The translations under genes and the position numbers were made by a program. Positions 4,389-20,508 of a stretch of 20,542 nucleotides of DNA are shown here, piece by piece (the stretch's first letter is position 1; each line of letters begins with the position of its first letter). The DNA comes from a bacterium (lineage in GTDB: Bacteria; T1Sed10-126). The notes beneath the pieces were generated by a model. That model did not search any database. It was not told the origin of the DNA and saw only the letters and a program-made list of their open reading frames with translations. The stretch is from assembly GCA_003557545.1 (NCBI GenBank), contig PWOD01000020.1, positions 1-20,542 of the forward strand, written 5' to 3'.

Positions 4389-6822
4389 TAACCAACAGTC
4401 ACACAGAGATCTCCCGCTAACCGGATTGTTAATTGCTATTTTTGTTGTCAGCGCTGCCGCACTTTCCTACCAGGTTGCTTTAACAAGAATATTTTCAATA
4501 AGCCAATGGCACCATTTCGCCCATATGATAATCAGTCTGGCGATGCTTGGTTTCGCCGCTGCCGGAACCTTTTTAGCCTTCTGCAAGAGTTCCAAAAACA
4601 ACCTGACCGACTGGCTAAAAATAGTCCTCTTACTCACTGCTCTATCCTTTCCTCTCTCTTACTGGCTATCCAGTATGATTCCTTTCGAAACCTTTCGTCT
4701 GACAACTCAACCTGTACAGCTACTCTATCTGTTGACAGTATATCTTGTTCTTGCCCTGCCTTTTTTTCTTGCTTCCTCCACCATTACAATTGGTTTTTTA
4801 ACTGTTCCCCATAAAATCGGCCTGGTCTATTTTAGCAATATGCTTGGTTCTGGAGCCGGAGCCCTGTTTACGGTAGGCTTTCTGTTTTTTCTTCCGGTAT
4901 ACCACCTTCCTTATACCATAGCACTGTTCAGCTCACTACCGGTTTTTTTGCTTTTTAAAAGTCGACGGGCTAAACAGCTGCTGGCAGTAATTCTATTCAC
5001 AGCTATCGTTATTACCCTGTTTGTCGGTATCAAACAGATTCCGATTTCCCAGTACAAACCACTGTCCTATGCTTTACAAAATCCCGATGCTGAAATTGTT
5101 GCCCGGGAAACCAGTCCCCTTTCAGAAATTACAGCGGTCCGTTCCTCAATGATTCGGGAAACTCCCGGACAGATTTCCAACTATCCCTATAGTAAATACG
5201 GTAGTATACCGGAACAGATTGTGCTCTATTTTGACGGTGGTTCTCCCTCCCCAATTATTAATTTTACAGGGGATACCCAACCAATTAGTTATCTGGATCA
5301 CACCACTTCAGCCCTGCCCTTCCATCTGGATCTTCCCCACGATAGGGTGGCAGTAATTGGTGCCGGAGGGGGTGGCGACATTCTGCTGTCACTCTATCAT
5401 GGCGCAGAAGATATCACCGCAATCGAAGTTGATCCTTCAGTCCACAAACTGCTGGCAGAAGATTTTGCAAAATTCTCGGGGAATCTCTATCATAACCCAA
5501 AAATCAGCTATTTACTGGAGGATGGACGGGGCTACCTACAGAAAACCCCTCAAACTTATGAGCTGATTAAATTCCCCCTGCTCGATGCCTTCACGGCCAC
5601 CGCCGCCGGAACCAACGCCCTGGCTGAAAGTTATCTTTATACCCGGGAAGCTATTCACCTTTATCTTGATCGACTAACCGAGCGGGGATGCTTGAGTTTT
5701 ACCCGTTGGCTGCGAACCCCTCCGAGGGATTTTATCAAACTCCTTGCCACAGTTATCGAGGTTTTAGATGAAAGAGGAGTTGAAAATCCGGGAGAGCACC
5801 TGCTGGCTATTCGATCCTGGAACACGGGAACACTGGTTGTAAGCCCCACAGCTTTTTCTCAACGATCTATTCACCAGCTGCAAAGTTTTGCTGATGACCG
5901 CTGGTTTGATCTGATCCATCACCCCACTATAGAATCAGCCGAAGTAAATCGCTTCATTGTTCTTAAAAATCCTGATTATTACAACGCCACCCAGGCCCTG
6001 CTTTCACCCCAAAGAGCTTCCTTTCTGGCTGAGCATCAGTTCAATTTAAATCCACCTGAGGATAATCGGCCCTACTTTCACCATTTTTTTCGCTGGCACA
6101 GCTTTATTCCCCTCTGGAAACAGCTGGGATCCGGTTCAATGCGTTATCTTGAATGGGGCTACGTAATTCTCCTGGCGACAATTTTACAGGCAGGACTAAC
6201 CGGTATACTATTTATATTAATTCCCCTCTGGTTACTTCGTTCCCTCAACCTTCTCCGACCGCTTCCCTGGATAATAATCGCTTACTTTGCTGGACTTGGA
6301 CTGGCCTATATTTTTTTGGAGATGGTATTAATTCAGAGATTTATGTTGTTTTTAAACTATCCAATTTATGCTATCGCTGTAGTCTTAACAGCCTTACTCT
6401 GTTTTTCAGGGGGAGGTAGTTACCTTGCTCATTTAAACCGAGAGTTTCCATTTAAAACGGCCCGCACCGCAATTATTGTAATTCTGCTAACCCTGCTGCT
6501 CTATCAGTTCAGCTTTCCCCTATTCTTTGATCTGGCGGCGGGCTGGAGCGATTTTTTTAAGATTTTAAGCTCCCTCCTACTGCTCGCACCACTGGCCTTC
6601 GCCATGGGTATTCCCTTTCCCCTCGGACTCCAGCTTTTAGCCAGTAAAAACCAATCCTTAATTCCCTGGGCCTGGGCGATAAACGGTAGTTTTTCAGTCA
6701 TCGGTGCTGGACTGGCAACTTTACTCTCTGTTCATCTTGGATTTTCCGCAGTTATATTTATCAGTGGGGGCTGTTATTTAATCGTTTTACTCCTTCTCCG
6801 CCTGCTGATCAGCTATATCTGA
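4378..6822 (+). CDS. Multi-pass membrane protein with spermidine-synthase-like SAM domain
   Basis: An 814-residue protein in three parts. An N-terminal block of about six or seven hydrophobic helices (residues about 15-220) comes first. A soluble Rossmann-like domain of the spermine/spermidine synthase superfamily has a glycine-rich SAM loop AVIGAGGGGDILLS at about 323-336 and acidic AIEVDPS at about 345-351. The late DNRPYFHHFF motif is typical of these membrane-linked members, and a second block of about six helices covers about 590-814. The usual catalytic Asp segment (D-x-x-D after the third strand) is replaced by KFPLLDAFTATAAG, so aminopropyl transfer is doubtful. Adjacent ATGs at 4378 and 4381 are both possible. 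Neither has its own ribosome site, and the 11-base overlap with pcm implies translational coupling. Its function is unknown. Confidence 0.85.
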   Translation: MMTDNQQSHRDLPLTGLLIAIFVVSAAALSYQVALTRIFSISQWHHFAHMIISLAMLGFAAAGTFLAFCKSSKNNLTDWLKIVLLLTALSFPLSYWLSSMIPFETFRLTTQPVQLLYLLTVYLVLALPFFLASSTITIGFLTVPHKIGLVYFSNMLGSGAGALFTVGFLFFLPVYHLPYTIALFSSLPVFLLFKSRRAKQLLAVILFTAIVITLFVGIKQIPISQYKPLSYALQNPDAEIVARETSPLSEITAVRSSMIRETPGQISNYPYSKYGSIPEQIVLYFDGGSPSPIINFTGDTQPISYLDHTTSALPFHLDLPHDRVAVIGAGGGGDILLSLYHGAEDITAIEVDPSVHKLLAEDFAKFSGNLYHNPKISYLLEDGRGYLQKTPQTYELIKFPLLDAFTATAAGTNALAESYLYTREAIHLYLDRLTERGCLSFTRWLRTPPRDFIKLLATVIEVLDERGVENPGEHLLAIRSWNTGTLVVSPTAFSQRSIHQLQSFADDRWFDLIHHPTIESAEVNRFIVLKNPDYYNATQALLSPQRASFLAEHQFNLNPPEDNRPYFHHFFRWHSFIPLWKQLGSGSMRYLEWGYVILLATILQAGLTGILFILIPLWLLRSLNLLRPLPWIIIAYFAGLGLAYIFLEMVLIQRFMLFLNYPIYAIAVVLTALLCFSGGGSYLAHLNREFPFKTARTAIIVILLTLLLYQFSFPLFFDLAAGWSDFFKILSSLLLLAPLAFAMGIPFPLGLQLLASKNQSLIPWAWAINGSFSVIGAGLATLLSVHLGFSAVIFISGGCYLIVLLLLRLLISYI

Positions 6823-12706: not shown

Positions 12707-13879
12707 ATGAGATTTATCTGTTCGAGAAAAATTGCTACTATAGCTCTTTTTTCTCTTGTTATTACCATTCTGGGAAGCTCATCTCTACTGGCAACAGTAG
12801 GAGGACACAGCCACGGACAGGGTCGGGGTGGTCTGAGTGATATACCGTTAAACATTGGAGCTGCCTTTGATATTACCCAAGAGATTCGCAGTGAAGACGA
12901 TAATGAGTTTGAACTGCGTGCTCTGGAGTTGAATATAGGCGCACCGGTAGATCCTTATTTTGATGCTCTGGCGACCATAGCCTGGCACGAGGGAGAGTTT
13001 GAGCTTGAAGAAGCCTGGGTATCGGCTGTACTTCCATATAGTTTCAAGGTCCAGTTTGGCCGTGAGTTTCTTCCGTTTGGCTATCTGAACCGTGTGCACG
13101 AACATGATTTTCCACAGGTTGATCAGCCATTTGTAATAGAGGAGTTAACCACAGACCACGGATTTATCGGGGATGGAGCACATCTGGAATGGATGGCACC
13201 TTTTTTCAACCCGACTTTAACTGTAAACGTTGGACTTTATGATAATGTCCAGCACAGTGTTGGACGTCGTATTGAAGGCCGTCCGGCAGTGGCAAGACTA
13301 CAGAGCTATTGGGAATCAAAAGATGGAACCCACGCTATGCTTGGTGGTCTGTCTTATCTGACCGGTATCGGCAATCAGGATCTACTGGCCGGCCGGTTGG
13401 ATGCGGGTGACACAGGTAATATGGGTGCCGACAGAGGTCGAGCCCAGGGTTATATACAGTCGGTTGCAGGGGCAGACATTAAATACCGCTGGCGCCCGGC
13501 TGGCAGAACTTACCGGGGCTTAACAGTTGGTGCTGAATACCTGACTGTCGATTATGATCCAAATGAATTTTTTGACGCAGTAACCTCAGACTCACCATCG
13601 ATCTCTGATGATGGTTTTTATACCTATGCCCAGTGGGATTTTGATCGGTTCTGGGGAGTCGGTTATCGTTATGATGACTCGGATGTATTGTTTAGTGAAT
13701 ATACTGACGACGCGCGGATGACGGCGCACTCTGTTTATGCCGAATGGCGAGCCACCGAGTTTTCCCGACTGCGCCTACAGTACCAGCGGCGGGATGACGA
13801 ACGAAGCGAAGATGAAGAAAACCTAGTTATGCTGCAGGGTACTTATTTTCTTGGCTGGCATCCGCCACACAGATTTTAA
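12707..13879 (+). CDS. Outer-membrane beta-barrel porin-like protein of a metal-uptake operon
   Basis: A 390-residue exported protein. A signal peptide covers 1-29 (hydrophobic ATIALFSLVITILGSSSLLA, likely cut before Thr30). The mature N-terminus has a Gly/His cluster, GGHSHGQGRGG (32-42). The body alternates polar and hydrophobic residues in beta-strand fashion and includes VQFGREFLPFGYLNRVHEHDFPQ. The QFGRE-x-x-PFG pattern is shared with porin-type outer-membrane proteins. It ends WHPPHRF with a terminal Phe, the usual C-terminal signal of outer-membrane barrels. GAGGAG precedes the ATG by 9 bases. It lies 58 bases before the metal-binding protein gene and under one apparent promoter, so it probably admits or captures the metal ion at the outer membrane. 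It is not a TonB receptor, because no plug domain is seen. Confidence 0.85.
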   Translation: MRFICSRKIATIALFSLVITILGSSSLLATVGGHSHGQGRGGLSDIPLNIGAAFDITQEIRSEDDNEFELRALELNIGAPVDPYFDALATIAWHEGEFELEEAWVSAVLPYSFKVQFGREFLPFGYLNRVHEHDFPQVDQPFVIEELTTDHGFIGDGAHLEWMAPFFNPTLTVNVGLYDNVQHSVGRRIEGRPAVARLQSYWESKDGTHAMLGGLSYLTGIGNQDLLAGRLDAGDTGNMGADRGRAQGYIQSVAGADIKYRWRPAGRTYRGLTVGAEYLTVDYDPNEFFDAVTSDSPSISDDGFYTYAQWDFDRFWGVGYRYDDSDVLFSEYTDDARMTAHSVYAEWRATEFSRLRLQYQRRDDERSEDEENLVMLQGTYFLGWHPPHRF

Positions 13880-13937
13880 TGTTGACAGGAAGCTCTATCT
13901 TTTACTACTTTAAACTATTCTTCAGGAGGAGTTAATA

Positions 13938-14855
13938 ATGAAGTTTAAGTTGCTCAGTTTATTAATGCTGACATTAGTTATCAGTTTAAGCGCAGTGAAT
14001 CCAGGTTTCGCCCGACTGCGAGTTGTAACGACCCTGCCCGACCATGCGGCACTGGCCGAGTATATCGGTGGTGAACAGGTTGAAACCTATTCACTTTCCC
14101 GACCGCTGCAGGATGCCCACTACCTTGATGCGACTCCGGGTATGATCGTACGGATTGGCCGAGCTGATCTGTTTATCAAAAATGGCATGGAACTTGAGGA
14201 GGGTTGGATTCCGGAAGTCCTCCGTGAAACCCGTAACCGGGCAGTAAGACCCGGAGGACGGGGATACGTAGATGCTTCAAAAGGTATTAACGCGATTCAG
14301 GTTCCTGAACGGATCCATCGTGATATGGGTGATGTTCACCCCTCCGGTAATCCTCATTATACACTCGAACCGGTCACTTCTATACCTGCGGCTGAAAATA
14401 TTGCTGATGGGTTGATCCGGATCGATTCTGCCAACAGTGACTATTACCTTGAAAACCTAACCCGTTACATTGAGGAAAGTCAGGAACTGCTGGAAAAATG
14501 GCAGGCAAAGTTTGAGCCCCATCAAGGTACCGGGGTAATTGTCTATCATAAACATTTCGACTACATGTTAGAGGCACTGGGGATTGAAGTTGTCGATGCA
14601 ATAGAACCACTTCCCGGTTTGCCGCCGTCGGCCCGGCACGTTGCCCAGCTTCTTTCGGAATATGACTCCGAAAGGGTTAGTTTTGTGCTGATGGAACCCT
14701 GGCACGATGCGCGTGTATCACAACGAGTTGCTGATGGGATTGGAGTTGAGCTTGTAACCGGCTGTCCGACGGTCGGTTCCTGTGAGGGCGCAGACTCTAT
14801 CTTTTCACTGTTCGAAACCAACGCCCAAAAAATCCTTGACGCGCTGGAAAACTAA
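13938..14855 (+). CDS. znuA: Metal (probably zinc) ABC transporter substrate-binding protein
   Basis: Periplasmic cluster-9 binding protein (ZnuA/TroA family), 305 residues with a signal peptide ending NPGFA (about residue 25). Predicted metal ligands by family alignment are His61 (QDAHYLDATPG), His140 (HPSGNPHYTLEP), His206 (YHKHFDY) and Asp286 near the C-terminus. Histidine at the third site favours zinc over manganese, since Mn-type members usually have Glu there. The His-rich loop found in many ZnuA proteins is missing. Cys276 and Cys282 (GCPTVGSC) could form a disulfide. A very strong ribosome site (AGGAGGAG) precedes the ATG. It is second in the operon after the porin-like gene. Confidence 0.9.
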   Translation: MKFKLLSLLMLTLVISLSAVNPGFARLRVVTTLPDHAALAEYIGGEQVETYSLSRPLQDAHYLDATPGMIVRIGRADLFIKNGMELEEGWIPEVLRETRNRAVRPGGRGYVDASKGINAIQVPERIHRDMGDVHPSGNPHYTLEPVTSIPAAENIADGLIRIDSANSDYYLENLTRYIEESQELLEKWQAKFEPHQGTGVIVYHKHFDYMLEALGIEVVDAIEPLPGLPPSARHVAQLLSEYDSERVSFVLMEPWHDARVSQRVADGIGVELVTGCPTVGSCEGADSIFSLFETNAQKILDALEN

Positions 14856-14893
14856 CCAGCTGCCATTTAACTTAATTTAGGTTGTGAGTTCAA

Positions 14894-15631
14894 TTGAGTA
14901 TTATTGAATTTAATTCAGTCACCCTGGGTTACGCGAATAAAACTGTTTTAGAAGATGTTAACCTGAAAGTTGAACCCGGGGAACTGTTTGGTCTTGTCGG
15001 CCCCAATGGGAGCGGCAAAACCACACTTTTAAAAGCCATGCTCGGGCAGCTCAAACCATGGTCCGGATCAGTCAATTGGAAAACAACCAGTTCACGTTGG
15101 GGATATGTCCCTCAGCGTGAACAGGTTGATCCAATCTGGCCCGTAACTGTTCAAAAACTCCTCAGGATGACCGTTCGATCAACCCAAACAGCCTGGATTT
15201 TCAGTAAAGAAAAACCGGAAATTGTCGAACAGGTCATAGAAATGACAGGGCTAAAAAAATTCAGTAACCAGACCCTTGAAACCCTTTCCGGTGGCGAACT
15301 TCAAAGGGTTCTGCTGGCACGAGCGCTGGTAGTTGAACCGGATATTCTTCTACTTGATGAACCGACGGCAGCAATGGACCTGGTAGCCGCAGCACATTTT
15401 TTAGATTTAATAGTAAAGCTACACGAGATCTGGGAAATAACAGTTGTCTTGGTCAGCCATGATTTATCGGCACTGGCTGATCGAACCGACAGAATTGGCA
15501 TTCTCAGGTGCGGCAATCTGTACAGTGGGCCGACGGACAGTATGTTGACATCAAAAAATTTAAGTGACGTTTATGGAAGAAGCCTGAAGGTGGAAAAAAC
15601 AACAGATAAGACCGTAATCTACCCTGATTAA
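14894..15631 (+). CDS. znuC: Metal ABC transporter ATP-binding protein
   Basis: Cytoplasmic ATPase of the zinc-type importer, 245 residues. The Walker A GPNGSGKT is at 36-43, Q-loop Gln74 (YVPQRE), signature LSGGE at 131-135, Walker B ILLLDE at 151-156 and switch His189 (VSHD). The order and spacing are normal. The start is TTG at 14894, chosen because residues 2-10 (SIIEFNSVT) match the usual first strand and no ATG lies nearby; GTGAG is five bases upstream. It is 38 bases after the binding-protein stop and 19 before the permease, so it belongs to one operon. Confidence 0.93.
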   Translation: MSIIEFNSVTLGYANKTVLEDVNLKVEPGELFGLVGPNGSGKTTLLKAMLGQLKPWSGSVNWKTTSSRWGYVPQREQVDPIWPVTVQKLLRMTVRSTQTAWIFSKEKPEIVEQVIEMTGLKKFSNQTLETLSGGELQRVLLARALVVEPDILLLDEPTAAMDLVAAAHFLDLIVKLHEIWEITVVLVSHDLSALADRTDRIGILRCGNLYSGPTDSMLTSKNLSDVYGRSLKVEKTTDKTVIYPD

Positions 15632-15650
15632 CAGATTGAGGTTTTTTTAG

Positions 15651-16499
15651 ATGCTATCATCTTTATTAGAAATCTATTCCTTCCAGTTTATGCAATATGC
15701 TCTGGCCGTCGGAATGTTAGGCGGTGGACTGCTTGCTTTCCTGGGTATATTCGTCCATTTACGACGAATTGTATTCCTCGGAGCTGCCATGCCCCAGGTG
15801 ATCGGTCTTGGTATAGCACTGGCTGTATTTTTTGCTTTACCACCACTTGGCGGGGCTGTTTTTGGTGGGGCGGCCGGTATACTGATATTATCGATGCTCA
15901 GCGGACAACGACGAATCTCAAATGAGGGCTGGATTGGGCTGGCCTACGCGGCCGGTGGCTCATTCTCGGTAGTTCTAATAGCTCTTTCCCCGGCGCCCGA
16001 TGCCACTGTGCTGCGATTTTTCACCGGTGATGTGCTGGGCACCGGCCTGTATGATCTATATTATACGCTGGCTGTTACTATATCCGTGGGATTGATTTTT
16101 TTCTGGTTCTGGAGTCGGTTTGTAATGTGTGGTTTTGACCCTTCAATGGCTATGGCCCTGGGAATCAAAGTAAAATTCTGGGATGCCCTTTTATTTTTCT
16201 GCCTGGCAATTTCCCTTTCGGTAATAATGAATACCGCCGGAGGTATGCTGGCCTTCAGTATGCTAATAGGCCCGCCAGCTGCAGCCCTATTATTATTCCG
16301 TGATTTCAAAAAAATTATCATTACAGCTATCCTGACCGGTTCTCTCGCTGCTTTTGTTGGGCTGACTTTGTCATTCACCCACGACCTCCCGGGCGGTCCT
16401 GCCATGGCCAGCAGCGCCCTACTAACCGTTCCCTTGCTTTACCTTGTTCAAAAATTAATTGCCGCATTTACCTCACTAATCAAAAAGTTTACAGACTAA
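15651..16499 (+). CDS. znuB: Metal ABC transporter permease
   Basis: Integral membrane subunit of the ABC-3 (ZnuB/MntB/TroC) family, 282 residues with about eight hydrophobic segments. Family-typical features are GMLGGGLLAFLGIFVHLRR near the N-terminus, FVMCGFDPSMAMALGIKVKFWD in the cytoplasmic loop that contacts the ATPase, and GGMLAFSMLIGPPAAA near 205-220. The ATG at 15651 follows a GAGG site by nine bases. It closes the porin-binding protein-ATPase-permease operon. Its stop is 26 bases from the convergent DUF364 stop, with no obvious terminator between. Zinc is the likeliest ion from the binding-protein ligands, but Mn or Fe is not excluded. Confidence 0.92.
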   Translation: MLSSLLEIYSFQFMQYALAVGMLGGGLLAFLGIFVHLRRIVFLGAAMPQVIGLGIALAVFFALPPLGGAVFGGAAGILILSMLSGQRRISNEGWIGLAYAAGGSFSVVLIALSPAPDATVLRFFTGDVLGTGLYDLYYTLAVTISVGLIFFWFWSRFVMCGFDPSMAMALGIKVKFWDALLFFCLAISLSVIMNTAGGMLAFSMLIGPPAAALLLFRDFKKIIITAILTGSLAAFVGLTLSFTHDLPGGPAMASSALLTVPLLYLVQKLIAAFTSLIKKFTD

Positions 16500-16525: not shown

Positions 16526-17281
16526 TCAATCGGCATAAAAACAGAGCCGGGGAAGATCGACTAACCATGCGGCAGCAGCCACCGTGTTCCCAAAGAATGC
16601 ATGGTTACTATTGAATTCTTGAAAATATTCTATCAGCTCGTCGATACTACCATTTACCAGAGTTGAGCCTGTTGCCAGAACAAAATCACTGCTGGCGATA
16701 AGCTGTTGATTGACTTTTAGACCATCCTTTATAACTACTCCAGAAGAAATCTCCCGAAAAATCGTTTGAGGATTCAGATCGCTAACCTGCACCGCCTTTG
16801 GACCAAAATATTCAATACAAGCAGCAACTATTGCCGGCTGGTACCCAACTATTCCGACCCGTTCTACCTCCGGCCAGTTTTCCTGCAGCCATGCGACAAT
16901 TTTTTCACCACATTTTTCAGGTTGATCGTCACGACAATGCCGAGTTTTTTCTATCATACCAAGCTCAGACAGAACAGCGTTCATGGCGGCCACAAGCAGG
17001 GCACGGTCATGAGTATTGGTAAGTTTACTATCAACCAGCTTATCGATCGTTCCCCGGTAATTATCCGGTCGATCAGTGAAGGCCTGTCCACAGGATGAAC
17101 CGTAAGTTGCTTCAATCATTACCTCCTCACCGCGAAGCAAGGGATAATCATCCCTCTCCGGATCACCAATCGCCTCCTGAACCTCCAACCCCCGGACAGC
17201 AATAGTTATTTTTTCCCCCGAAAGAGAATTTTCAGCAACAATATCAACAAATCGATCTCGTGCTTTTTCCAGTATTCCCAA
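16526..17281 (-). CDS. DUF364 (DUF4213-linked) putative heavy-metal chelation protein
   Basis: A 251-residue cytoplasmic protein of the DUF364 family, annotated in domain databases as putative heavy-metal chelation with a Rossmann-like fold; no enzyme function is firmly known to me. Visible features are GEEVMIEATYGSSCGQAFTD (51-70) and a His115-Cys116 with Cys124 cluster (RHCRDDQPEKCGE) typical of the family. VGIVGYQPAIV (142-152), ATGSTLVNGSIDEL (203-216) and FFGNTVAAAA (229-238) follow. The start is TTG at 17279-17281, supported by AAGGAG ten bases upstream; no ATG fits. It lies convergent to the zinc permease and near a Mo/W transporter, which fits a metal-related role by association only. 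Confidence 0.85.
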   Translation of the reverse strand: MGILEKARDRFVDIVAENSLSGEKITIAVRGLEVQEAIGDPERDDYPLLRGEEVMIEATYGSSCGQAFTDRPDNYRGTIDKLVDSKLTNTHDRALLVAAMNAVLSELGMIEKTRHCRDDQPEKCGEKIVAWLQENWPEVERVGIVGYQPAIVAACIEYFGPKAVQVSDLNPQTIFREISSGVVIKDGLKVNQQLIASSDFVLATGSTLVNGSIDELIEYFQEFNSNHAFFGNTVAAAAWLVDLPRLCFYAD

Positions 17282-18042: not shown

Positions 18043-18061
18043 AATTAAGAATTGCTTAATT
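18043..18061. promoter_or_regulatory. 7-bp inverted repeat, candidate operator
   Basis: AATTAAG and CTTAATT pair perfectly around AATTG. A further TTAAG half lies at 18065-18069. The repeat sits about 24 bases upstream of the candidate -35 of the Phd/MobA-like gene. Phd-type proteins commonly bind palindromes at their own promoters, so autoregulation is a reasonable guess. Confidence 0.4.
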
Positions 18062-18084
18062 CAGTTAAGATTTTTTACTTGCTT

Positions 18085-18112
18085 TTGACTGTTTTTCATA
18101 ATATTGTACATA
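18085..18112 (+). promoter_or_regulatory. Candidate promoter of the Phd/MobA-like and mod genes
   Basis: TTGACT (18085-18090) is followed after 16 bases by TACATA (18107-18112), a poor -10. The start of the gene lies about 55 bases further on. The AT-rich context offers other -10 choices (CATAAT at 18097), so the exact site is uncertain. Confidence 0.35.
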
Positions 18113-18167
18113 AAAGTGTTTTAGCGGTTTTTGCCAGATTTTAGTATGCCGGTTAACCACTGAGGAG

Positions 18168-18809
18168 GTGCTCAGGATTAAGGAAATTCACAATATTACG
18201 ACAGTGCGACAGAATTTACCGGGTATATTGGATGAGCTTGAGTCAGATATTATCATCACGCGCAACTACCGACCTCAAGCCATCATCAAACCACTGCAGG
18301 ATGACACAGACGAAAGACCTGCTCTTATTATTCTCGGGACAAAAGCCGAGAGTGAAAAGAAAGCAGAAAAAACCATATCCGAAATTAATTCTAACGCCGA
18401 GCTTTTTTCGCGGATTATTTTTGTCTGCAGTGATAAAACTCGCAAATATGGTTTTAAACTGAAGGGCTGTGACATCAGGTTGGTGATCAATGAAAAAACT
18501 GAATATCCAATAATCAGCCCGCTGAAAGACGGACTGGGTGGGTTGAATCCCGGTGATAATTTTTTTATCTTTACATTCCTATCAGCACCGGAAGCCACAA
18601 CCCGGCTGCCGTTGATCTGTGAGGCTGTGAAAAACTGCAGAGATGAGAAGAAACTGGTTGCCATGCTCACCCTGAACGGGGACCCGACCCACCCGATTGC
18701 GCTATCCTGCTCACTGCAGGATGAAATTATTAAGACAAGAAAAGAGCTGGGAATCCCTTATCTGATCCGCAAGTATGAGGACAACATAGTCTATAAAGAA
18801 ATAAACTGA
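18168..18809 (+). CDS. Phd/YefM-like domain fused to degenerate MobA-like nucleotidyltransferase
   Basis: A 213-residue protein. Residues about 4-43 read as a Phd/YefM antitoxin-type DNA-binding fold: a strand IKEIHNITT, a helix VRQNLPGILDELE, then DIIITRNYRPQAIIKPL, close to the family ITR-x-G-x-P-x-A. Residues about 50-213 resemble a MobA/MocA-type nucleotidyltransferase in strand order (ALIILG, RIIFVCSD, SPLKDGLGGLNPGDNFFIFTF, MLTLNGDPTHPIALSCSLQDEI). The signature L-x-GG-x-S-x-RMG and the metal-binding Asp of GD-x-P are absent (TFLSAPEA instead), so catalysis is unlikely. No toxin gene is adjacent; a Mo/W transporter follows after 66 bases. GAGGAGG (18162-18168) overlaps the GTG start. 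An ATT at 18177, eight bases beyond, fits the ribosome site better and would remove three residues. The likely role is regulatory, by inference only. Confidence 0.75.
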   Translation: MLRIKEIHNITTVRQNLPGILDELESDIIITRNYRPQAIIKPLQDDTDERPALIILGTKAESEKKAEKTISEINSNAELFSRIIFVCSDKTRKYGFKLKGCDIRLVINEKTEYPIISPLKDGLGGLNPGDNFFIFTFLSAPEATTRLPLICEAVKNCRDEKKLVAMLTLNGDPTHPIALSCSLQDEIIKTRKELGIPYLIRKYEDNIVYKEIN

Positions 18810-18875: not shown

Positions 18876-19730
18876 ATGAAAAAACAAACGCTAATAGTAT
18901 TTTTACTTGCCCTTACTTTACTTCAGCCCTGGAGCTGCAGCCGCCATGACCGAGAGGAGCTGCTGGTTTTCAGTGGTGCTGCCAGCAAACCGGCAATTGA
19001 AGAGATCGCTGAAATTTACAAAGAAAAAACCGGAACCAGGGTGCAGGTTAACGTGGGTGGTTCCGGCAGTTTACTTGCCCAGATAGAGATGAGCGGTCAG
19101 GGTGATGTTTACATCCCGGGTTCACCGGATTATATCGAGATTGCCAACGAAAAGGAGCTGATTTATTCCGACTCAGTAGAAATAATAGCCTACCTGGTGC
19201 CGGGTATAATCGTACCTGCAGGTAATCCGGCTGGAATTAAAAGTTTACACGATTTAACCCGGCCGGGAATTAAAGTTGGAATTGGTAATCCTGAATCAGT
19301 CTGCCTGGGACTTTATTCTCTGGAAATTCTCGAGCATAATAACCTGCTTGAAGAAGTTCTGGCTAATACCGCGACTTATGCAGCAAGCTGTTCTAAAACA
19401 GCCAACCTGGCAGTTTTCAAGCGAGTCGATGCCGTGCTGGGCTGGAGAGTTTTCAAAGACTGGAACCCGGGGGAACTGGAGCATGTGGGACTTAAAAGCG
19501 ACCAGATTCCCAGACTGGCTTACATACCGGCTTCAATACCGGTGCATACCCGCAACCGGGTGGCGGCCCAAAAATTCATCGACTTTTTGCTGTCTGAAAC
19601 CGGACGGGAAATTTATGCTAAATACGGCTACATCTCCAGTCGCGAAGAGGCTCGCAGCTACAGCCCCGACGCGGCTATCGGCGGCCAATATAAAATCCCC
19701 GAGATTTACTACCGGTTGATCCATGAATAA
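18876..19730 (+). CDS. modA: Molybdate/tungstate ABC transporter substrate-binding protein
   Basis: Extracytoplasmic oxyanion-binding protein of the ModA/WtpA type, 284 residues. The N-terminal MKKQTLIVFLLALTLL forms a signal segment followed by Cys21, possibly a lipidated cysteine, although PWSC is a poor lipobox. The mature part opens LLVFSGAASKPAIEEIAEIYKEKTG, the family's first oxyanion site (SGAASKP, 33-39). NVGGSGSLLAQIE and QGDVYIPGSPDYI follow, also typical. ATG at 18876 is preferred over in-frame TTG 18858, because it leaves a clean signal peptide and has an AAAGG-type site. It overlaps modB by eight bases. Molybdate, tungstate or both cannot be separated by sequence reading. Confidence 0.88.
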   Translation: MKKQTLIVFLLALTLLQPWSCSRHDREELLVFSGAASKPAIEEIAEIYKEKTGTRVQVNVGGSGSLLAQIEMSGQGDVYIPGSPDYIEIANEKELIYSDSVEIIAYLVPGIIVPAGNPAGIKSLHDLTRPGIKVGIGNPESVCLGLYSLEILEHNNLLEEVLANTATYAASCSKTANLAVFKRVDAVLGWRVFKDWNPGELEHVGLKSDQIPRLAYIPASIPVHTRNRVAAQKFIDFLLSETGREIYAKYGYISSREEARSYSPDAAIGGQYKIPEIYYRLIHE

Positions 19731-20508
19731 CAGGTTTTTTACTGCTGTTCTTGTGGCGGTTACAACTCTGCTGCTATTTTTATTGCTATTCCTGATTGGC
19801 GGCTTGATTGTCAGACTCCTGACCTCCCAACCGCTGCGCCCTACTGATTACCGTTCAATTGCCTTTTCGATAAGGCTGTCCTTATACACGGCCAGTATTG
19901 CTGCTGTTATAGCAACATTAATCGGCGTCCCGATCGCTTATTTCCTTACCCGGCATGATTTTCCGGGACATAGCTTTATCGACACTCTACTCGATCTGCC
20001 GGTTTTTTTATCACCGATTGCCCTCGGTGCAATGCTAATGATATTTTTTAACACCCCCCTCGGACGCTGGATAGAAGGAATAACAGGCCCGGTAGTTTTT
20101 GAAGTCAAGGGGATTATAGTTGCCCAGTTTTTCGTAACTATCGGGCTTGGAATACGACTTCTAAAGAACACTTTTGAGCATATTGACCGTGATTATGAAG
20201 ACATATCCAGGGTGCTGGGGGCCAGCAAACTGCAGACTTTCCGGCGGGTGGTGCTGCCGCTTGCCCGCAGAGGAATTATCACTTCGCTGCTGCTTGTCTG
20301 GGCCCGGGCCGTGGGAGAATTTGGCGCAACAGTGGCTCTGGCAGGGGCAACTCCAATGAAAACCTCAACTATCCCGGTTGGCATCTATTTAAGTTTCGGA
20401 GCGGCCGATTTGCACAGCGCTACTGTATATATTTTGCTGCTGATTGCTGTTTCCCTGACTGTTCTATTTACAACCCGCTGGTTACTGGGTGTAAAAAATG
20501 GGAGTTAA
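19723..20508 (+). CDS. modB: Molybdate/tungstate ABC transporter permease
   Basis: Inner-membrane channel subunit, 261 residues with about six hydrophobic segments. The N-terminal region spans FFTAVLVAVTTLLLFLLLFLIGGLIV. PIAYFLTRHDFPGHSFIDTLLDLPVFLSPIALG is the family's first cytoplasmic-loop region. The EAA-type loop EDISRVLGASKLQTFRRVVLP (about 159-179) docks on the ATPase. The diagnostic RAVGEFGATVALAGATPMKTSTIP follows near 194-217. The start overlaps the modA stop by eight bases (ATGAATAA) and the stop overlaps modC by 11, indicating tight translational coupling. Confidence 0.92.
   Translation: MNNRFFTAVLVAVTTLLLFLLLFLIGGLIVRLLTSQPLRPTDYRSIAFSIRLSLYTASIAAVIATLIGVPIAYFLTRHDFPGHSFIDTLLDLPVFLSPIALGAMLMIFFNTPLGRWIEGITGPVVFEVKGIIVAQFFVTIGLGIRLLKNTFEHIDRDYEDISRVLGASKLQTFRRVVLPLARRGIITSLLLVWARAVGEFGATVALAGATPMKTSTIPVGIYLSFGAADLHSATVYILLLIAVSLTVLFTTRWLLGVKNGS

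Follow-up and report, generated by a model that had tools for sequence, protein, structure and literature searches.

A probable molybdenum-status repressor of an unrecognised type: Phd-pMobA, an antitoxin-type DNA-binding domain joined to a pseudo-MobA domain

What is the task of a protein that begins like an antitoxin, continues like a molybdenum cofactor transferase without its active site, and heads a molybdate transport operon? The question is raised by an open reading frame in a bacterial contig of 20,542 nucleotides (PWOD01000020.1), the whole of which was analysed and is referred to here as the window. In a first-pass annotation, this frame had been read as a Phd/YefM-like domain fused to a catalytically dead MobA-like domain, and a repressor function had been proposed for it. 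We find that the protein, which we name Phd-pMobA, is probably a type of molybdenum-status repressor that has not been recognised before. The features of the locus are collected in Table 1.

Table 1. Features of the Phd-pMobA locus and DUF364 copies in related contigs. Coordinates without a contig prefix are those of the window.
Feature	Coordinates	Strand	Basis
DUF364 protein, divergent neighbour	16526..17281	-	PF04016 30.7 bits, cut-off 23
Predicted sigma-70 promoter TTTACT-17-CATAAT	18074..18102	+	TTGACA-17-TATAAT geometry in relatives
Predicted operator TTCATAATATTGTACATAAAAGTGTT, TGTACA core, overlapping the -10 box	18095..18120	+	PWM from other genomes
Shine-Dalgarno sequence GAGGAGGTG	18162-18170	+	Sequence; GTG 18168 falls within it
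Phd/YefM-pseudo-MobA fused protein	18168..18809	+	213 aa; Pfam/NCBIfam matches and predicted model
N-terminal Phd/YefM DNA-binding domain, aa 1-45	18168..18302	+	PF02604 match, homologues, alignment, fold neighbours
Pseudo-MobA/MocA domain, aa 47-213	18306..18806	+	TIGR03310, VIA-align Z 16.2 to 2wee_A, alignments
modA-like molybdate-binding protein	18876..19730	+	TIGR01256 73.1 bits, above cut-off
modB-like permease	19723..20508	+	TIGR02141 E 2.4e-50
Beginning of modC, truncated at the contig end	20498..20542	+	Sequence; modA-modB-modC order in relatives
DUF364 or look-alike copies	L145:967-1704; L111:1946-2671; L112:9933-10658; L074:11328-12074; window 16526-17281 (-)		

In the window protein itself, both domains are matched weakly. 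The Pfam model PF02604 (PhdYeFM_antitox) covers residues 6-45 with an E-value of 1.6e-4 and 21.8 bits, and does not reach its cut-off of 29.8; the NCBIfam model TIGR03310 (MocA) covers residues 76-211 with an E-value of 2.3e-5, also under the curated cut-off. Both assignments are settled by the stronger matches in relatives. A fused protein from another contig (L069) is above both cut-offs, with 34.3 bits for PF02604 and 29.5 for PF12804 (cut-off 27). The Caldisericota homologues in which Phd is a separate protein have 31-63.6 bits for PF02604 (E-values down to 1.5e-17), and all 19 of the 19 members of the pseudo-MobA family match the MocA model. A phmmer search of the PDB with the window protein gave only a chance match. 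The AlphaFold2 model of the window protein, made with seven relatives included, has a pLDDT of 86 and a pTM of 0.86. For residues 47-213, the best PDB match by VIA-align is Rv0371c (2wee_A, Z 16.2, rmsd 2.4 over 154 residues), and the MocA-type 3d5n is a further match (Z 15.8). IspD and GlmU come close behind the MocA-type proteins, as is expected within this superfamily. In the model, the N-terminal residues follow the strand-helix-two strands order of Phd-type domains. Folded alone, this domain has VapB46, the PfiAT antitoxin complex and a prevent-host-death protein as its Foldseek leaders, all of them weak (E-values of at least 0.56). Of the two folds named in the first-pass annotation, the MobA-type fold is found directly, and the Phd/YefM-type N-terminus is indicated weakly on its own and with the support of the relatives. 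Judging from the alignment of homologues, ATT 18177 is a plausible rare start codon, with a spacing of 6-7 to the Shine-Dalgarno sequence, and translation may begin there.

The C-terminal half has the fold and strand order of the cytidylyl- and guanylyltransferases MocA and MobA (PF12804, TIGR03310), and it shares their molybdenum gene context. Aligned with six intact MocA sequences, the family keeps the HP pair and the Ser of the S-S/x-K region but lacks the LxxGxSxRMG loop, the Asp of DxP and the C-terminal Asp segment. In the window protein the last of these, DxDxxxD in MocA, is missing because the protein ends before that point. We found no alternative alignment that restores the catalytic residues. 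The loss of the loop and of the DxP Asp is what had been proposed from the sequence, and the C-terminal segment can be added to it. Unlike the enzymes, the family has a joined DNA-binding domain and a set of invariant residues (K120, H175, P176, R191, K192, E193, G195 and Y198) that includes a new motif, RKExGxxY. Between pairs of close relatives, dN/dS is 0.08-0.24. Purifying selection together with invariant residues of its own indicates a protein that is under constraint and has taken on a new role, rather than an enzyme in decay.

The family is real and selected, and it is rare. It is present in 4 of 386 sampled genomes (G000, G014, G072 and G100), and in 4 of 340 genomes of one phylum. 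Whole genomes and GTDB contigs place the relatives in the lineage of the window, in Elusimicrobia-type MAGs, which make up two separate phylum groups, and in Caldisericota. None was found among plasmids or in a scan of viral contigs. Members have at least 95 bits with the family model, and enzymes with an RMG loop have at most 71; later matches to a wider family model, up to 85 bits, are also enzymes. Lower-scoring matches in other genomes were rejected as members, as they are enzymes of the MocA type that carry the RMG motif or something close to it. Phd and pseudo-MobA are fused in the lineage of the window and in the Elusimicrobia-type MAGs. In Caldisericota they are two genes, a phd gene (65-86 aa) and a pseudo-MobA gene (194-204 aa), that overlap or nearly touch. 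The occurrence of one pair in fused and split forms, a Rosetta-stone pattern, is independent evidence that the parts work together. In the open-access literature we found no description of a Phd/pseudo-MobA architecture or of a Moco-responsive pseudoenzyme repressor, and nothing relevant on TunR; earlier work elsewhere is not excluded.

The gene neighbourhood ties the family to molybdenum. In the window, the ATG of the modA-like gene (18876) is 66 bases past the stop codon of the Phd-pMobA gene, as first described for modABC, with modC only begun where the window and the contig end. In relatives, neighbour names without a profile-model match were read by eye from the translations. An Elusimicrobiota contig (L109) has the order Phd-pMobA-porin-modA-modB-modC followed by XDH subunits, a Caldisericota contig (L120) has pMobA-modABC, and in L146 the gene pair closes a long series, modABC-moeA-moaA-moaC-mogA-MOSC-Phd-pMobA. 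The operon of L068 and L146 contains Moco synthesis genes. A relative's contig (L145) has DUF364-moeA-modABC-XDH-MoaD, with XdhC and MocA following on the opposite strand. In three more (L074, L110 and L112), phd-pMobA stands between mogA, upstream, and an ABC importer, downstream; L074 and L112 also have DUF364, and L074 and L110 have molybdenum hydroxylase (XDH) genes. In L069 and L128, Phd-pMobA is followed by a TonB-dependent receptor and an apparent ABC/ECF-type transporter, and L069 has XdhC. Several Caldisericota pairs, L114, L117 and L118 among them, have no close molybdenum gene. Counted with the modB model, modB is within 6 kb of pMobA in four independent lineages out of 17 where 0.17 are expected (P 1.6e-5). 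The recurrence beside molybdenum genes, on which the first reading depended, is seen in several phyla.

Some of these neighbours deserve a description of their own. DUF364 (PF04016) recurs in molybdenum clusters with pseudo-MobA in three lineages, where the copies of L074, L112 and L145 are look-alikes identified by eye. The domain has been linked earlier to molybdate/tungstate transport and to pterin chemistry (PMC2954201), and it may have a role in molybdate/tungstate or pterin handling. Upstream of DUF364 in the window (12707-16499), we read by eye a porin-like gene and then a znuABC-type metal ABC transporter. The transporter regions L069:8638-14678 and L128:1463-7681 perhaps encode a hitherto unrecognised system that takes up Mo, W or a pterin. 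In L120, right after modABC, there is a second MobA-like protein (4985-5557, minus strand) with a worn signature, ILAGRRKGK, and GNQP for GDQP.

A candidate operator appears upstream of the fused genes. It is a 26-bp palindrome, TGCATTATAATGTACATAAAAATGCA, with ATG-NN-CAT at its centre, that lies over the -10 box of promoters with the layout TTGACA-17-TATAAT; the copy in L069 is a 12-bp inverted repeat without mismatches. The palindrome was first spotted by eye and was tested afterwards. A PWM of three Elusimicrobia sites, built with the window excluded, ranks 18095-18120 first in the whole window (12.6 versus 6.2). The three sites used singly rank it first or joint first each time, and a matrix of the G072 group alone again ranks it first. 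Scores of 20-25 bits are found for sites on which the PWM was not trained: at porin-modABC in L147, at modA and moeA in L146, at moeA in L068, and, in L037, upstream of the G100 gene for Phd-pMobA. Among these are the operons porin-modABC and moeA in a third lineage. There are no unrelated matches above 14.5 in the 737 kb scanned, and 2 Mb of simulated sequence has none that reaches 16. A derived pattern, which was drawn to include these sites, has a single perfect site in each of four genomes, every time just upstream of the Phd-pMobA gene. The operator of the window is only 5/12 symmetric, and 3 of 100 simulated windows contain a site that scores as high; it therefore leans on its position. 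A TGTACA core is present in the window site, in that of G100, and in the mod sites of G072 and G102. A plain search of the window for TGTACA is uninformative (4 sites, 3.2 expected), and information came only from the full palindrome with training on other genomes. YefM binds palindromes with the same core and covers the -10 box with one of them (PMC7730913); all the sites of this family cover that box too. At several carriers (G103, G451, G115, G161 and G132) the palindrome is absent or weak. A shared operator at the target promoters is thus present, by sequence only. Upstream of the promoter of the window, we observe a second inverted repeat, AATTAAGAATTGCTTAATT, at 18043-18061.

The well-known control routes for molybdenum genes are ModE and the Moco riboswitch. 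ModE controls mod operons and Moco genes, which is the role proposed here for Phd-pMobA, and does so with different domains, a LysR-type HTH with TOBE/MOP. With the ModE model (TIGR00637) we find no match in the genome of the window or in 28 other carriers (29 in total), nor in the window protein; as a control, the same search has matches in 7 of 14 well-known genomes. The Moco riboswitch (RF01055), an RNA and not a protein, controls genes for the transport of molybdate and the synthesis of Moco in response to cofactor status (PMC2408646). It has no match in the window or in its genome. Amongst carriers, it is found in none of nine with the fused protein and in 13 of 20 Caldisericota with split genes. 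Within the lineages that have modB, the riboswitch is present in 0/4 where pMobA adjoins modB and in 7/8 of the others (Fisher P 0.01); in several of the lineages that have it, it is about 1 kb upstream of modB. This contrast is partly confounded with phylogeny, and nonetheless G113, a member of Caldisericota, follows the rule. A regulator distinct from both known routes, as the first-pass annotation had it, agrees with carriers that have no detectable ModE and fused carriers that have no riboswitch.

We consider it reasonably likely, with no binding data, that Phd-pMobA is an autoregulated one-component repressor of molybdenum uptake and Moco synthesis in which pseudo-MobA senses the cofactor. 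The Phd/YefM-type domain would dimerise and bind the 26-bp palindrome over the -10 box, and the bound repressor would block RNA polymerase at the operon that encodes it (in the window, Phd-pMobA-modABC) and, among relatives, also at the porin-modABC and moeA-moaA-moaC-mogA operons. The C-terminal half, with the nucleotide- and metal-binding residues lost and strictly conserved basic residues kept, would most likely bind the end product Mo-molybdopterin (Moco) as co-repressor, such that uptake and synthesis would be switched off when the cofactor is plentiful. The parts of this proposal differ in standing. The fold assignments, the loss of catalytic residues, purifying selection, the recurrence with molybdenum genes and the operator are computationally supported. 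A DNA-binding role is well supported by several independent computational lines, and no DNA binding has been measured. Repression as opposed to activation, dimerisation, Moco as the ligand and the sign of the co-repressor are inferred, without ligand-binding data; for ligand and sign, the inference draws on the fold, the invariance of the basic residues, the set of genes and the mutual exclusion with the riboswitch. The earlier idea of a repressor is supported in outline by a predicted operator on its own promoter and on mod/moe operons elsewhere.

The alternative that survives best, which we still regard as unlikely, keeps the repressor and changes the ligand to the free oxyanion, molybdate or tungstate, so that Phd-pMobA would be a functional analogue of ModE. 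It is consistent with the position at the head of modABC and other ABC uptake operons and with the absence of detectable ModE in all carriers, and the invariant basic residues K120, H175, R191 and K192 could hold an oxyanion. Yet the fold belongs to a cofactor transferase and not to an oxyanion-binding TOBE/MOP domain, there are Moco synthesis genes within the operon of L068 and L146, and the exclusivity between pMobA and the Moco riboswitch at mod operons points to the cofactor. Less probable still is that pseudo-MobA is a carrier, storage or insertion factor for Moco, or docks on MogA, MoeA or MocA, while Phd provides an antitoxin-like autoregulation coupled to complex formation. The separate genes of Caldisericota show that pMobA is able to act as its own polypeptide, and mogA, moeA, MOSC and XdhC are nearby in several lineages, but an operator that is also at porin-modABC and moeA operons goes beyond autoregulation.

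We give very little credence to a toxin-antitoxin module with pseudo-MobA as a new toxin. Phd-pMobA has the DNA-binding domain of Phd/YefM antitoxins (PF02604), and in Caldisericota the Phd/YefM gene directly overlaps a second gene in the usual antitoxin-toxin order. Elsewhere the two are a single fused chain that has pseudo-MobA in place of the toxin-binding half, and the N-terminal domain of the window protein is without the toxin-binding C-terminal segment of antitoxins. There is no toxin partner: in agreement with the first reading, no toxin gene adjoins Phd-pMobA among the ORFs of the window, where the neighbours are DUF364 and the mod genes, and PADLOC gives no toxin or defence family match. 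The strong tie to molybdenum operons and the shared operator also speak against a toxin. Equally improbable is a nucleotidyltransferase that has stayed active through unusual catalytic residues, a reading favoured by purifying selection and the invariant SxK, HP and RKExGxxY set, but for which all three MobA/MocA catalytic elements are missing and an intact MocA is encoded elsewhere in the genome (L136).

As a cofactor-sensing repressor, Phd-pMobA would carry out a known task with a new kind of regulator architecture; that it senses the cofactor is an unproven and testable claim. It would add a third, protein-based control route for molybdenum genes, in which metabolic control has recruited a toxin-antitoxin DNA-binding domain. 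Specific target promoters can be predicted from it in several uncultured phyla. It would possibly also be the first protein known to read the cofactor and not the oxyanion. The most far-reaching form of the proposal, a first protein family that senses Moco itself, with a pseudo-transferase receptor and an antitoxin-type domain, in one chain or in neighbouring genes, that replace ModE and the riboswitch in uncultured phyla, remains tentative, and we would not yet bet on it. If the ligand is Moco, the family would open a genetic approach to a cofactor that is notoriously unstable.
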